From the NCBI GenBank assembly GCA_002683405.1, contig NYTH01000028.1, forward strand, positions 124,001 through 188,000: 64,000 nt of DNA. The letters run 5' to 3'. The notes beneath the pieces are model-generated. The model was not told the DNA's origin. It did no database searches and saw only the letters and a program-made list of their open reading frames with translations. Shown one piece after another: positions 7,896 through 16,722 of the stretch. The stretch's first letter is position 1. Each line of letters starts with the position of its first letter. The stretch is from Salinisphaeraceae bacterium (lineage in GTDB: Bacteria; Pseudomonadota; Gammaproteobacteria; Nevskiales; Salinisphaeraceae). A program made the translations under genes and the position numbers.

Positions 7896-8441
7896 ATGAT
7901 TCACCGCATCGAAACACTGTGTCTGGCCATCCTGATGACGGCTGCCTCGCTGCCGGCCAGTGCCGGCATCGTCTCCGAGCTGCGCGGCGGCCTGCTGGAT
8001 CACGCCAGCACGCTGGTGAGCTCGGGGCGCGAAGACGGCGTCGACCTGAATCTGGAGGTCGTCTTCAACAGCGTGCCCTACACCCTGGGCGGTCATCCGC
8101 ACCTGGGAACGTCCTTCAATAATGATTCGAACAATACCGACCACGTCTACGCCGGCCTGACCTGGGACGGCCGGCCGGTCGGCGAGTTCCAGATTCGCTT
8201 CGCGCTGGGTGCGGCCTATCACAACGGCGAAAAGCTGCGCTTTTCCGACGAGGTTCGTGGCCTGGGGAACACGGTGCTGTTCCATTTCGGACTCGATCTG
8301 GGCTGGCGCTTCTCGCCGCGCTGGGACGTGAGCGTCTACGCGCAGCATATGTCCAACGGGCCGTTCGACGGTGAGCGCGGGGTCAATGACGGCCTGGACA
8401 ACATTGGCCTGCGTCTGGGCTACCACTTCAATCCGGAGTGA
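7896..8441 (+). CDS. PagL-like lipid A 3-O-deacylase (acyloxyacyl hydrolase)
   Basis: A 181-residue outer-membrane protein with a signal peptide ending near SLPASAG. Alternating beta strands fit an 8-strand barrel. The C-terminal part shows the PagL active-site pattern in VYAQHMSNG (His-x-Ser), followed by an acidic/Asn region and LRLGYHFNP at the end. PagL removes the 3-position acyl chain from lipid A at the outer leaflet, changing endotoxicity and envelope permeability. The start at 7896 is chosen because the signal peptide begins there; upstream codons lack a ribosome site. It is monocistronic between divergently oriented DNA and a regulatory region. Confidence 0.82.
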   Translation: MIHRIETLCLAILMTAASLPASAGIVSELRGGLLDHASTLVSSGREDGVDLNLEVVFNSVPYTLGGHPHLGTSFNNDSNNTDHVYAGLTWDGRPVGEFQIRFALGAAYHNGEKLRFSDEVRGLGNTVLFHFGLDLGWRFSPRWDVSVYAQHMSNGPFDGERGVNDGLDNIGLRLGYHFNPE

Positions 8442-8722
8442 CGCGAAAGTGCGCCCAATCGCTCGACAGCCAGGGCCTACATCCACAACAATACTTACAC
8501 AACAACGAACTCCGGAAAAATACTGAGGCATTATCCACAACAATATGTTGACAAAGTGGAAATCATGCGGCTTAATCCACCACATCACGTAGACAAACGG
8601 ACGACGTCAATCTTCCGGCATTACGAAAAGCCCATGCAGCGCAACACGGCCACAACTCGCACCCCATTCATTTGCGGCGCCCCCGCCCGCAGCGGGCTGC
8701 GGCGTCGGGCGGGTCGGGCGTG
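8442..8722. promoter_or_regulatory. Regulatory region with DnaA-box-like repeats and a sigma-70 promoter
   Basis: The 13-mer ATCCACAACAATA occurs at 8481-8493 and 8533-8545, 52 bases (about five helical turns) apart. A looser TTACACAACAA lies between them. The second copy is part of a perfect DnaA-box consensus, TTATCCACA, at 8531-8539. Immediately downstream are a perfect -35 TTGACA (8548-8553), 17 bases, and CTTAAT (8571-8576). The promoter points to the MerR-type gene, leaving a leader of about 140 bases. Confidence 0.55.
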
Positions 8723-12020: not shown

Positions 12021-12126
12021 TCAGCCCATCCCGGGACGGGCCACACCGGCGCGTCAGCAATTTCCTACACGCCAATGCGCCTCGCGCCGATGCAAGGCGG
12101 GTGTGCATGGCCGTTAGTCTGTGTAC

Positions 12127-12136
12127 TGTGTACACA
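12127..12136. promoter_or_regulatory. Short palindrome upstream of the low-complexity secreted protein
   Basis: TGTGTACACA is a perfect 10-base palindrome within a longer run of GTGTAC repeats, 36 bases before the ATG. It could be an operator half or chance; nothing else supports a regulator. Confidence 0.25.
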
Positions 12137-12172
12137 CAGCGCACAACCCGAAACGGAACTGGAGCACATCTG

Positions 12173-12814
12173 ATGAAACGGATTATCGCGACCGCCCTGA
12201 TCTCTCTTGGCACGACCGGCATGGCACAGGCGCAGGACCCCGCCGCCATTCTCGGTTCGGTGACCGGCATTGTGGGTAGCGCCACCCAGACGCTGACGAT
12301 GGGCGGCCCCGGCGGTATCGCCAATCCGGGCGGTCTGCTCTCGGGCCTGCCGGTTGTGGGCGGCGCCGAACTGCCCGTTCTCGGTAGTCTCCAGGGTCTG
12401 CCCCTGGCCGGCGGCCTGAACGGACTGCCGATCCTGGGCGACGCAGCCGGCGGCCTGCCGCTGGCCGGCGGACTGGATACGCTTCCGGTGATTGGCGGGC
12501 TGACCCGCGGCGCCCTGCCCCTGCCTGACGTGTCGGCCGTCCTGAATGGCCTGCCCGGCCTGGCCACCGGCGTCGCGAACAGCCTGACCAACCTGGACGG
12601 CAGCCTCAACGCCCTGCTCGGCACGGTCGGCAGCCTCGCTCAGACCCTGCCGGGTCTGGCGGTCAACCCGGTCGCCCCGGAACTGCCGATCATTGGCGGC
12701 ATCCCGCAGATTGGCGACGTCGTGGGCACGGTGACCGGCGTGGTTGGCGGCGCCCCCGGCGCGGGTCTGCCGGCTCTGCCCGGACTGCCGGCGCTGCCGG
12801 GTCTGGGCCTCTAA
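12173..12814 (+). CDS. Secreted low-complexity Gly/Leu/Pro-rich repeat protein
   Basis: A 213-residue protein with a clear signal peptide (MKRIIATALISLGTTGMAQAQ). The mature part is almost entirely G, L, P, V, A and I, with very few charged residues and no Cys. Degenerate repeats of 12-16 residues centre on LP(V/L/I)xGG and GLPxL: GLPVVGGAELPVLGSL, GLPLAGGLNGLPILGD, GLPLAGGLDTLPVIGGL. The extreme C-terminus repeats LPALPGLPALPGL. The composition suggests an extracellular or envelope structural, elastic or self-assembling protein; no family is recognised. GGAG at 12161-12164 supports the start. A strong terminator follows. Confidence 0.7.
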   Translation: MKRIIATALISLGTTGMAQAQDPAAILGSVTGIVGSATQTLTMGGPGGIANPGGLLSGLPVVGGAELPVLGSLQGLPLAGGLNGLPILGDAAGGLPLAGGLDTLPVIGGLTRGALPLPDVSAVLNGLPGLATGVANSLTNLDGSLNALLGTVGSLAQTLPGLAVNPVAPELPIIGGIPQIGDVVGTVTGVVGGAPGAGLPALPGLPALPGLGL

Positions 12815-12902: not shown

Positions 12903-13862
12903 TCAGGCCGGGGTTTGCGATTCCGAAAGCCAGGCCGGCGGGGGGAGTTCACCCTCGGCCGTCAGACCGCGACGCAGAAAGTAATCCTGTACATCGGTGC
13001 CGTCGTGACGCCGCTCGTTCAGAAATCGGCGGACAATGGCGGCACATTCATTGGCCCGGGCGACCATGAACAGATGCCCCCCGCCGCGCATGACGTGCAG
13101 ATAGGATTTGGGAATCAGCCAGTACAGCAGCTTGATGTTGACCAGCGGAATAAGCGGATCGTCGTCACCGCCCATCACGAGCGTGGGCGCCTTGAGCCGA
13201 TACAGCCGATGCGCGCTCGACCAGCCCTGGATCGCCAGCAGCTGGTAGATATAGCCGCGCAGATTGGGGCGCCGCGTGAGAGACCCGTGGCGGGCAATCA
13301 GATCGGGCCGGCTGCGCATGAGCCCACCGTATATCTCGGGCGCTACGCGGGTCAGGAAACTGCGTGAAATGTAGCGCCGCGGAGTGATCATGCGGCGGAG
13401 TACCGCGGGCCGTGCCGGGACCGAAGGCAGGCCAGCCATGGTGGCAGCCAGAACCAGTCGGTTGGTGCGCTCCGGGAAATCCAGCGCAAACTGCTGCGCC
13501 ATCGCGCCGCCCCAGGACACACCGGCCACATCCACCGCCTCGCGATAACCCAGCCGGTCGAGCAGCCGGGCCGTGAAGCGCGCGAATCCGGCAAATCGGG
13601 TGGGACAGCGCAGGGTGTCCGATTCACCCGTGCCGGGCATGTCGAAAATGATGACTTCGTAGCCATCCATGGCGTCGATGAACGGCGTGACGATATCGAG
13701 GTTCGCGCCAATGCCGTTGAACACGAGCAGCGGTCGTCCCCGGCCGGCGCGTATGGCCACGCGCACCCTGACGCCATCCACCTCCATGAACTCCACCTGG
13801 AGCGGCGGACCGGCGTGGGCTGCGCCCGGGGCGCGAGCGGCTGACTGTTCCTGCTTTTCCAT
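12903..13862 (-). CDS. phaZ: Intracellular poly(3-hydroxyalkanoate) depolymerase PhaZ
   Basis: An alpha/beta hydrolase of about 319 residues, closely patterned on pseudomonad PhaZ: LLVFNGIGANLDIVTPFIDAM, FDMPGTGESDTLRCP, nucleophile elbow GVSWGGAMAQQFALDFPER, MITPRRYISRSF, acid in VMGGDDDPLIPLVNIKLL, and His in GGGHLFMVA. All three catalytic residues are present. It releases hydroxy acids from medium-chain PHA granules in the cytoplasm. It is the third gene of a minus-strand operon after the synthase and a PhaZ-like paralogue, with a gap of about 90 bases from the latter. ATG at 13862 has a weak ribosome site, so the first ~25 residues are uncertain. Confidence 0.88.
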   Translation of the reverse strand: MEKQEQSAARAPGAAHAGPPLQVEFMEVDGVRVRVAIRAGRGRPLLVFNGIGANLDIVTPFIDAMDGYEVIIFDMPGTGESDTLRCPTRFAGFARFTARLLDRLGYREAVDVAGVSWGGAMAQQFALDFPERTNRLVLAATMAGLPSVPARPAVLRRMITPRRYISRSFLTRVAPEIYGGLMRSRPDLIARHGSLTRRPNLRGYIYQLLAIQGWSSAHRLYRLKAPTLVMGGDDDPLIPLVNIKLLYWLIPKSYLHVMRGGGHLFMVARANECAAIVRRFLNERRHDGTDVQDYFLRRGLTAEGELPPPAWLSESQTPA

Positions 13863-13953
13863 CAATATTTCGTTCGCCGTGCAGGCCGCCGGCGCGGCCC
13901 TACAGGGTTATCGGCCGGCCCGGCATGGCCTGCAGCAGCGCAACGCCGGGGGT

Positions 13954-14784
13954 TCAGACGAAATCCTTGGCCGCCAGTTCGTCGCGTATATTCTTGCGCC
14001 GGCAGAAATTCTGCACGGCCCGGGCGGTCTCCGCGGCGCGTGTCACGGGGAACAGATGGCCTGCGCCGGCCAGCCGCACCAGGCGCGACTGCGGAATGAG
14101 GGCCTGGAGAATCCGCGCGTTCACCATGGGCACGATGGGATCGTCATCCCCCGCCAGAATCATGGTCGGGCGGTTGATCCGGTGCAGTGAAAACACGCTG
14201 CCCGGCCCGGCCGCCGCGGCCAGCTGCATGCTGTATCCGCGACGTGAGGGCATCTTGACGCGTACTGCATTGGCCCGAACCCGATCCGGCTCGTAGCGGG
14301 ACAATCCGCCATAGGTCCTGTGGGCGGTGCGTGCGAAATCGTCGGCAGACCGGAATCGGCCGCGCCAGCCCAGCTGGATCAGGCTCTTGAAGCGACCGGG
14401 CAGCATGACCTGCCCGGCCGAGGTACCGGCCAGTACCAGTCGGCGTACCCGCTGCGGCTGGTCCAGCACGTAGCACTGTACCAGCAGTCCGCCCCAGCCG
14501 ATCCCCATATAGTCCAGCTCGCCGGTATAGCCGAGCGTATCGACCAGGCGGGCGAGTAGCCGCGCGTAGGCGCCCATGCGCAGGCGCGCGCGATGGGCGG
14601 TGGATTCTCCGGCTCCGGGCGCATCGAACACCATCCAGGGCGTATCACCCAATGCGTCGAGCAGCGGCGTGAGCAACTCGATGTTGGCGCCGATTTCGTT
14701 GCAGATGACCAGCGGAACGCCATCGCCCCCGTGGCTGGCCACCCGGATGCGCTCACCCGCCATGTCGAGATAGCTGAAGTTCAT
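13954..14784 (-). CDS. PhaZ-like alpha/beta hydrolase with Gly replacing the nucleophile Ser
   Basis: A 276-residue paralogue of PhaZ with the same motif order: LVICNEIGANIELLTPLLDAL, FDAPGAGES, acid in LAGDDDPIVPMVNARIL and His in GAGHLFPVT. At the nucleophile elbow the sequence is MGIGWGG where PhaZ has GVSWGG. Codon 96 (14499-14497, minus strand) is GGC, Gly, so the canonical Ser is absent while the other two triad positions remain. It is either a non-hydrolytic granule-binding or regulatory protein, or uses another chemistry. Its ATG overlaps the stop of the PHA synthase by four bases (ATGA), so it is translationally coupled to it. Confidence 0.85.
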   Translation of the reverse strand: MNFSYLDMAGERIRVASHGGDGVPLVICNEIGANIELLTPLLDALGDTPWMVFDAPGAGESTAHRARLRMGAYARLLARLVDTLGYTGELDYMGIGWGGLLVQCYVLDQPQRVRRLVLAGTSAGQVMLPGRFKSLIQLGWRGRFRSADDFARTAHRTYGGLSRYEPDRVRANAVRVKMPSRRGYSMQLAAAAGPGSVFSLHRINRPTMILAGDDDPIVPMVNARILQALIPQSRLVRLAGAGHLFPVTRAAETARAVQNFCRRKNIRDELAAKDFV

Positions 14785-16538
14785 AGCTGATGAACGTAGC
14801 GGCCCGGCGCCGCCTCCAGCACGGTGTGGCGCTCGGAGCCGAGCGAAACGGGCGCCGCCGATCGTTTTCGCGACTGCGCGTTCACCCAGTCCAGCCACTC
14901 GTTCCACCAGCTGCCCTTGTGAATCTGCGCCCGCTGCAGCCACTGCTCGGCGGGCAGCGACGTGTCGCGGTGCTCGCGATACGTTCCGCGGCCGGCCCGC
15001 GGCGGGGTGACGATGGACTGGATATGCCCGGCGGCGCAGAGCAGAAACCGCTTGCGGCCGCCCAGCAGCGCCGCCGAGCGATAGCAGGCTTCCCACGGCG
15101 TGATGTGATCGGACTCGCCCGCCACGACAAAAACCGGGCAGGTCACGCTGTTCAGGTCGATCGTCTGCCCGAGAATCTTCATCCCGCCGGACCGGCGCAG
15201 CGGATTGCCGCGGAAGATCTGCAGCAGGTCGGCGTGAAATTGCGCCGGCAGCCGGGTGTTGTCGTTGTTCCAGAAGAGGATATCGAAGGCCGGTGGCGAC
15301 CGCCCGAGCACGTAGTTGTTGGTGTGGAATCGCCAGATCAGGTCATCCGGACGCAGCCAGGCGAAGGCGCGCGCCATCTCCCGGCCGTCCAGCACGCCGC
15401 GCTGGCGCGACTGCTCAAGCGCCTGGCGCACCGTGCGCTCGTCCGCAAACAGACCCACCAGCGTGCGGGCCCGGGTATCCAGAATGGTGACCAGCAGCGA
15501 CAGGCTGCGCACCTGACGGCCACGACCCTGCGCCTGCAGGCAGGCGGCCAGCACGGCGGCCGTCATGCCGCCGGCGCAGGCGGCCACCAGATGCGTCGAT
15601 TCGCTACCGGTAATTTCCAGCACGGCCTCCAGCGCCGCCTGGGCCGCGCTGACGTAGGTTTCCAGCCCCCAGTCCCGCTGCGCCGCCGTGGGGTTGCGCC
15701 AGGACACGCAGAACACCTGCTGACCCTGTTTGACGGCATGCTCGATGAAGCTGCGGCCGGGCGCCAGATCAATAATGTAGTACTTGTTGATCTGCGGCGG
15801 CAGGATAAGCACGGGCAGCGCATTGACGATCTCGGTCACCGGCGCGTACTGAATGACCTCGCATACGGTATTGCGGAAGACAACGGCGCCCGGCGTCGCA
15901 GCCAGATTGCGGCCGACCTCGAAGGCCTTCGCATCCACCTGCCGGGGCAGACCGCCGTTATCGCGCAGGTCGGTGAGCAGGTTTGTCAGGCCGGTCAGCA
16001 GCGAACCACCCCGCGTGGCCCACAGCCGGCGGGGGAACTCGGGGTGACCGCCGGGGAAATTCGTGGGCGCCGCCATCGCCACGATCTGGTGGACCAGAAA
16101 GCCGGCGCGCGCCTTGTCGCGGTCGCTCCCGGGCAATGCGTGCAGGAGCGCATCGAGGCTGTTTGACCACGCCAGATAGGCCTGCATGACGCGGCGGTAA
16201 TAGCGGCTGCGCTGCCACACGGGATCGGCAAAGCGAACATCGTCGGCGCGCGGCGCCAGGCGCGACAGGCCCAGCAGGATGCGGCCCTGCTCCAGCGCCA
16301 GCGATGCCTCGATGCGCGCGACCGTCAGCGGGCTGCGGGCCATCAGAAGCACAAGGCGACGGAGCGCGTCGATAATCTGCGGCTGAGACAGACCGACCAG
16401 GGGACTGGAGCCCAGCACCGCCTCGGCGGCCAGCCGCGCATCATCCACCGCGTGGCTGATACGGCCGGCGCGGGCGGCCAGACTGGGCTTGGGCGGCCGC
16501 GGTGCTGAGGGATGTCGGGGATCTTGCTGTGACGGCAT
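14781..16538 (-). CDS. phaC: Class II-type poly(3-hydroxyalkanoate) synthase PhaC
   Basis: A 585-residue PHA synthase that polymerises hydroxyacyl-CoA on the granule surface. The features are TNFPGGHPEFPRRLWATRGGS (the family's N-terminal region), FRNTVCEVIQYAPVTE, VLILPPQINKYYIIDLAPGRS, FCVSWRNPT, a lipase-like box AACAGG with the catalytic Cys, an Asp in VAGESDHITPW and a His in AAGHIQSIV. Class II enzymes usually have GACAGG; here the first Gly is Ala. ATG at 16538 with GAAGGG six bases upstream is preferred over an ATG at 16577. It is the first gene of the PHA operon and divergent from the YihY-family gene. Confidence 0.92.
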   Translation of the reverse strand: MPSQQDPRHPSAPRPPKPSLAARAGRISHAVDDARLAAEAVLGSSPLVGLSQPQIIDALRRLVLLMARSPLTVARIEASLALEQGRILLGLSRLAPRADDVRFADPVWQRSRYYRRVMQAYLAWSNSLDALLHALPGSDRDKARAGFLVHQIVAMAAPTNFPGGHPEFPRRLWATRGGSLLTGLTNLLTDLRDNGGLPRQVDAKAFEVGRNLAATPGAVVFRNTVCEVIQYAPVTEIVNALPVLILPPQINKYYIIDLAPGRSFIEHAVKQGQQVFCVSWRNPTAAQRDWGLETYVSAAQAALEAVLEITGSESTHLVAACAGGMTAAVLAACLQAQGRGRQVRSLSLLVTILDTRARTLVGLFADERTVRQALEQSRQRGVLDGREMARAFAWLRPDDLIWRFHTNNYVLGRSPPAFDILFWNNDNTRLPAQFHADLLQIFRGNPLRRSGGMKILGQTIDLNSVTCPVFVVAGESDHITPWEACYRSAALLGGRKRFLLCAAGHIQSIVTPPRAGRGTYREHRDTSLPAEQWLQRAQIHKGSWWNEWLDWVNAQSRKRSAAPVSLGSERHTVLEAAPGRYVHQL

Positions 16539-16722
16539 GCAGCGCCCTTCGGGGCGAATGACTCGGCGCGCTGACATGAACGTCAGCCTAGGGTTGAGGT
16601 TAGCAGCAGAATCCAACAGCCCACAATACGGCGTATTTCAAAGACTGGCCGACTGTCATCGAGCCAGCGGCGACCTGGCGTTACAATGCCGACTGGATTC
16701 TTCGGCGCACGGGAAGGCAGAG

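Follow-up and report, generated by a model that had tools for sequence, protein, structure and literature searches.

The phaC-GLY-phaZ locus

The stretch of DNA analysed here (64,000 nucleotides; hereafter, the window) carries on its minus strand three PHA genes, in the order phaC, GLY and phaZ. The product of phaC (14781..16616; the start codon is uncertain and the longest frame is quoted) is a PHA synthase close to class II (TIGR01839, 662.9 bits; PF07167), with the lipase-box Cys, the Asp and the His intact. The phaZ gene (12903..13865, minus strand; an alternative ATG lies one codon inside, at 13862) codes for a Ser-bearing mcl-PHA depolymerase that matches PF00561, scores 296.4 bits on TIGR02240, over the curated cut-off of 250.6, and carries Ser117 (codon TCC at 13517-13515) within a GVSWGG elbow. 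Between the two lies the gene that we call GLY (13954..14784, minus strand), an uninterrupted open reading frame of 276 codons plus stop, which codes for a serine-less PhaZ paralogue with 41% identity to the neighbouring PhaZ over 264 amino acids. On the plus strand, 12101-12814 encodes a protein of 237 aa that is rich in Gly, Leu and Pro, has a signal-like N-terminus and gave no Pfam match.

GLY matches PF00561 (E 7.4e-21); the Pfam scan returned only Abhydrolase_1, Abhydrolase_6 and Hydrolase_4, and neither of the phasin domains PF09361 and PF05597. On TIGR02240 it reaches 188.6 bits, under the cut-off, and none of the GLY copies of the family passes this threshold. An AlphaFold2 model built with 28 aligned sequences (pLDDT 88.9 and pTM 0.90, weaker in the lid at about residues 121-150) predicts an alpha/beta-hydrolase fold with good confidence, and among solved PDB structures the model comes nearest to esterases and C-C hydrolases of the ordinary kind, with TM-scores reaching 0.85.

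The catalytic triad of the PhaZ of Pseudomonas putida KT2440 (hereafter KT, the source of our reference numbering) is formed by Ser102, Asp221 and His248, and its activity is abolished by deletion of loop 34-38 or by mutation of N35 (PMC12504323). The triad positions correspond to Gly96, Asp215 and His243 of GLY. Gly96 is encoded by GGC at 14499-14497 and the nucleophile elbow, G94-I95-G96-W97-G98-G99 (14488..14505, minus strand), thus has GIGWGG where the neighbouring PhaZ has GVSWGG, as the initial annotation had read it. That annotation also had the acid and the His retained, in the motifs DDDP (from residue 213) and GHLF (from residue 242), and both are invariant: Asp215 (14140..14142, minus strand) is found in the 14 GLY copies described below, in 58/58 Ser-bearing PhaZ and in 5/5 Ser-less PhaZ, and His243 (14056..14058, minus strand) in all 14 GLY copies. 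The loop N29-E30-I31-G32 (14689..14700, minus strand) is the equivalent of KT N35-G36-I37-G38, which, judging from the fold, would lie on the oxyanion side; in GLY an acid replaces its first Gly.

Conservation of the glycine and of the operon within the family

The family sample comprised 17 genomes, that of the window and 16 relatives. The phaC-GLY-phaZ order, which the initial annotation had suggested following into related genomes, recurs in 14 of them, i.e., in every one carrying the locus, and GLY thus has orthologues in 13 relatives; as two of the genomes (G008 and G012) are almost identical, the 14 loci represent about 13 independent samples. Neither a PhaC_N match nor GLY was found in G002 and G004, both small genomes, and G015, a genome 85% complete, gave only a weak PhaC_N match and no GLY. 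Genes for a BrkB/YihY-type membrane protein and an AMP-binding acyl-CoA ligase, divergent from phaC, are on the same side in 14/14 loci, and a triad alignment shows the Cys, Asp and His of PhaC to be kept in every family genome. Relatives within the order but outside the family have an ordinary PhaZ behind phaC. The coupling of GLY to the synthase through an ATGA, where the phaC stop and the GLY start overlap, is present as described (14781..14784, minus strand), and the two frames overlap in all 14 loci, by 4 bases in the window and by 17 bases in the 13 relatives, in which the GLY start sits within the final phaC codons, at CGCTATGTCCGC or close variants.

The nucleophile position is occupied by Gly in 14/14 GLY copies (codons GGC in 12, GGG in one and GGA in one) and by Ser in 49/49 PhaZ proteins from outside the family (members of the order, of the class and of the phylum, plus one from an actinobacterial MAG); there was no Gly copy among these 49. 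A class-wide protein search at E 1e-30 produced a single match outside the family, and it bears Ser. The initial annotation had considered that homologues in related species might have Ser at this position, as expected of a private mutation; every one of the 14 orthologues has Gly instead, and the presence of this residue in 14 genomes, through three Gly codons, rules out both a private mutation and a sequencing error. Invariant columns in the alignment of the 14 copies number 54 (20% of the protein), and the longest invariant block is the elbow itself, G94-x-G96-W97-G98-G99-L100-L101-x-Q103. The position of KT G36, which is Gly in 97% of the 58 Ser-bearing PhaZ, is D in 11, E in two and N in one of the GLY copies; within the same loop N35 is kept in 10/14, G38 in 3/14 and G36 in none. 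Since both the nucleophile and the N-G-I-G loop are lost, normal ester hydrolysis by GLY would be unlikely, and at the level of sequence the loss of ordinary Ser-hydrolase chemistry is strongly supported.

Two residues make the window GLY the odd member of its clade: residue 244, just after the catalytic His (14055-14053), is Leu in the window and Trp in the 13 relatives, and lid residue 166 (14289-14287) is Pro in the window and Cys in the 13 relatives. Cys166 was considered as a replacement nucleophile and dropped: it is found in 13/14 copies but not in the window gene.

Pairwise dN/dS values for GLY, which are approximate and all well below 1, range from 0.086 to 0.23 (Nei-Gojobori, pairs not near saturation), and the divergence of GLY relative to that of PhaC gives a ratio of 0.95-1.23. 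The open frames together with dN/dS rule out a pseudogene. The GLY copies form one clade (support 99/96) and the family PhaZ copies form a separate one (100/100), near Pseudomonas-type PhaZ (91/76); though the tree separates the two clades, the AU test leaves room for a shared origin (p-AU 0.193). The GLY/PhaZ duplication occurred no later than the divergence between the window's genus and the second operon-bearing genus.

Loss of the serine from family PhaZ copies

The initial annotation took the neighbouring PhaZ as the intact enzyme. This holds for the window, with its GVSWGG elbow, but not throughout the family, as Ser is present in only 9/14 copies; it is replaced by Ala in G005 (locus L047) and G013 (L042) and by Gly in G003 (L046), G014 (L048) and G016 (L045). 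Because G009 and G010, which lie between Ser-less copies on the tree, keep Ser, the residue was lost in at least two events. KT G36 is Thr in all five Ser-less PhaZ, three of which have also lost N35. The Ser-less pair from G003 and G016 has a dN/dS of 0.07, and the PhaZ/PhaC divergence ratio is 0.80 for Ser-less versus 0.56 for Ser-bearing copies, still slower than PhaC. That Ser-less PhaZ remains under constraint points to a Ser-independent role for the PhaZ fold in the operon. Moreover, the intact triad of PhaC, together with the loss of Ser from PhaZ, indicates that some lineages retain PHA synthesis and can do without the Ser of PhaZ. The loss of Ser from GLY is real and conserved, and the second copy, PhaZ, is on the same path. 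For annotation, several PhaZ genes of the family are without the nucleophile, and the gene name alone should not imply PHA degradation.

Another depolymerase could serve the Ser-less species. A PF06850 search of the family genomes found a depolymerase above the cut-off in the window's genome only, and the other 13 operon-bearing genomes have neither a second full-strength PhaC_N match nor a PF06850 match above the cut-off. Besides the synthase of the operon, the window's genome (G000) encodes two more, together with a PHB depolymerase of the PF06850 type, on contigs C57, C51 and C52 (loci L107, L108 and L104). At another locus (L060:5522-6295(+) / 7952-8629(-)), a third PhaZ-like hydrolase (GHSWGG) is separated by some 1.7 kb from a phasin whose tail is rich in Lys and Ala and resembles PhaF-type proteins. 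The C-terminal tail of the family PhaZ, N-E-R-R-x-D-G-T-D-x-x-D-Y (residues 283-295 of the window protein), is almost invariant and family-specific; it persists in the Ser-less family PhaZ and is missing from other PhaZ.

A putative pseudo-depolymerase and its known counterparts

We consider it probable, though by no means certain, that GLY is a pseudo-depolymerase which, like ABHD5/CGI-58 on lipid droplets, has a binding role at the granule, with the polymer, PhaZ or PhaC as its target. GLY would have arisen long ago by duplication of PhaZ, the intracellular mcl-PHA depolymerase; with the change of Ser to Gly and a rebuilt oxyanion-side loop, it would have lost its Ser-hydrolase chemistry and presumably become inactive, while keeping its fold and lid as well as the His and the Asp. 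The overlapping reading frames may tie its output to that of the PHA synthase in a fixed ratio, and the protein would probably sit on the nascent PHA granule, binding polymer chains or contacting PhaC or PhaZ; there it may set the amount of polymer that PhaZ reaches, as either a coactivator or a competitive blocker. We favour this reading because Gly is found in 14/14 copies, with synonymous codon changes, as opposed to Ser in 49/49 proteins outside the family; because the elbow is invariant, KT G36 is lost in 14/14 copies and dN/dS is 0.09-0.23; because the operon is kept in 14/14 loci with a single GLY clade, and GLY is absent from the two family genomes that have no PhaC_N match; because Ser-less PhaZ also stays constrained; and because there is a precedent in ABHD5, which has Asn in place of Ser and coactivates an active lipase on lipid droplets (PMC9694394). 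Against a pseudo-depolymerase, Asp215 and His243 are kept over deep divergence, which appears to be more than a pure binder needs, and in the five species without Ser in either copy GLY cannot regulate an active PhaZ from the operon.

Of the roles that the initial annotation had proposed for the Gly-bearing PhaZ (binding, granule shaping, regulation or non-Ser chemistry), none is singled out by the sequence, although the loss of normal Ser-hydrolase chemistry is well supported. A primary role as a granule coat protein is the less likely for the PF09361 phasin that every one of the 14 operon genomes carries (it is absent from G002 and G004). PF05597 phasins were found in none of the 14, which had looked promising for GLY as a phasin stand-in; the PF09361 phasin in 14/14 rules against it.

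The conserved acid and base also underlie a different proposal, that GLY catalyses a reaction without a Ser nucleophile, in which the His243-Asp215 dyad would act as a general base and the acid at residue 30 (KT 36), with the space left at Gly96, would form a new site. The presence of Asp and His in 14/14 copies, of an acidic residue 30 in 13/14 (Asn in one) and of an invariant elbow agrees with this proposal, and a published study of a cofactor-free dioxygenase with the alpha/beta-hydrolase fold describes a mechanism in which a His/Asp dyad can serve as the base (PMC3961685). However, there is no invariant alternative nucleophile among the copies (Cys166 in 13/14, Pro in the window), the loss of the oxyanion-side glycines speaks against ester hydrolysis, and the pocket is not uniform, the residue after the His being Leu in the window and Trp elsewhere. 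Such an enzyme is possible, but unlikely.

GLY could instead assist the PHA synthase, as a subunit or in a chaperone-like way, in a role like that of PhaE or PhaR in classes III and IV and with little tie to depolymerisation. Its start overlaps phaC in 14/14 loci, its place directly behind phaC is fixed, and its rate of divergence is close to that of PhaC (0.95-1.23); PhaC, however, is class II-like, and synthases of that class are not known to require a partner subunit, while the ordinary PhaZ behind phaC in the order relatives suggests that the position alone was inherited. We therefore regard a synthase partner as rather unlikely. Still less can be said for an ordinary or decaying duplicate (a residual hydrolase or an outgoing pseudogene) or a sequencing error: the nucleophile is absent and the TIGR02240 score is under the cut-off, as such a copy might have it, but the frames are open in 14 genomes with dN/dS of 0.09-0.23, Gly is in every copy and the coupling to phaC is conserved, so that this explanation is very improbable and, as far as the sequences tell, largely refuted. 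A bolder scheme, which we put forward as speculation and do not expect to hold, has the PhaZ fold turned twice into a non-hydrolytic granule part, as GLY in the ancestor and later as PhaZ itself, in two or more lineages; a serine PhaZ would then be missing from some PHA makers, and GLY may carry out His-Asp-acid chemistry on the polymer.

In the open-licence literature searched, we found no description of a serine-less member of the PhaZ family, nor of a pseudoenzyme together with polyhydroxyalkanoate. The natural series of Ser-bearing PhaZ, Ser-less PhaZ and GLY would allow hydrolysis to be told from binding in PhaZ function by experiment. The closest known system is the PhaZ of P. putida KT2440 (TIGR02240), which shares with GLY the fold, the length, the lid, the acid, the His and an adjoining class II-like phaC, with 37-40% identity between Pseudomonas-type PhaZ and GLY; unlike it, GLY has Gly for the nucleophile Ser, an altered N-G-I-G loop and a sub-cut-off TIGR02240 score, and falls in a separate clade. 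Phasins (PF09361 and PF05597) have a granule-side function, like that proposed for GLY, but no sequence relation to it. NDRG1-4 are non-enzymatic proteins of the alpha/beta-hydrolase fold (PMC7022630), as GLY may be, but in them the whole triad is replaced and the pocket is blocked, whereas GLY keeps the Asp and the His. ABHD5/CGI-58 is likewise an alpha/beta-hydrolase that has lost the nucleophile (Asn153 in ABHD5) and kept the Asp and the His; it differs in being eukaryotic and of another family, in having an N-terminal Trp-rich droplet anchor that is missing in GLY, and in that its lipase partner, ATGL, has a patatin fold rather than an alpha/beta-hydrolase fold. The likeness would thus be one of functional analogy only. 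In animals, pseudo-lipases that steer lipid-droplet breakdown are already known; a bacterial counterpart acting on bioplastic granules would, if true, mean that PHA turnover is controlled at a point not recognised before.
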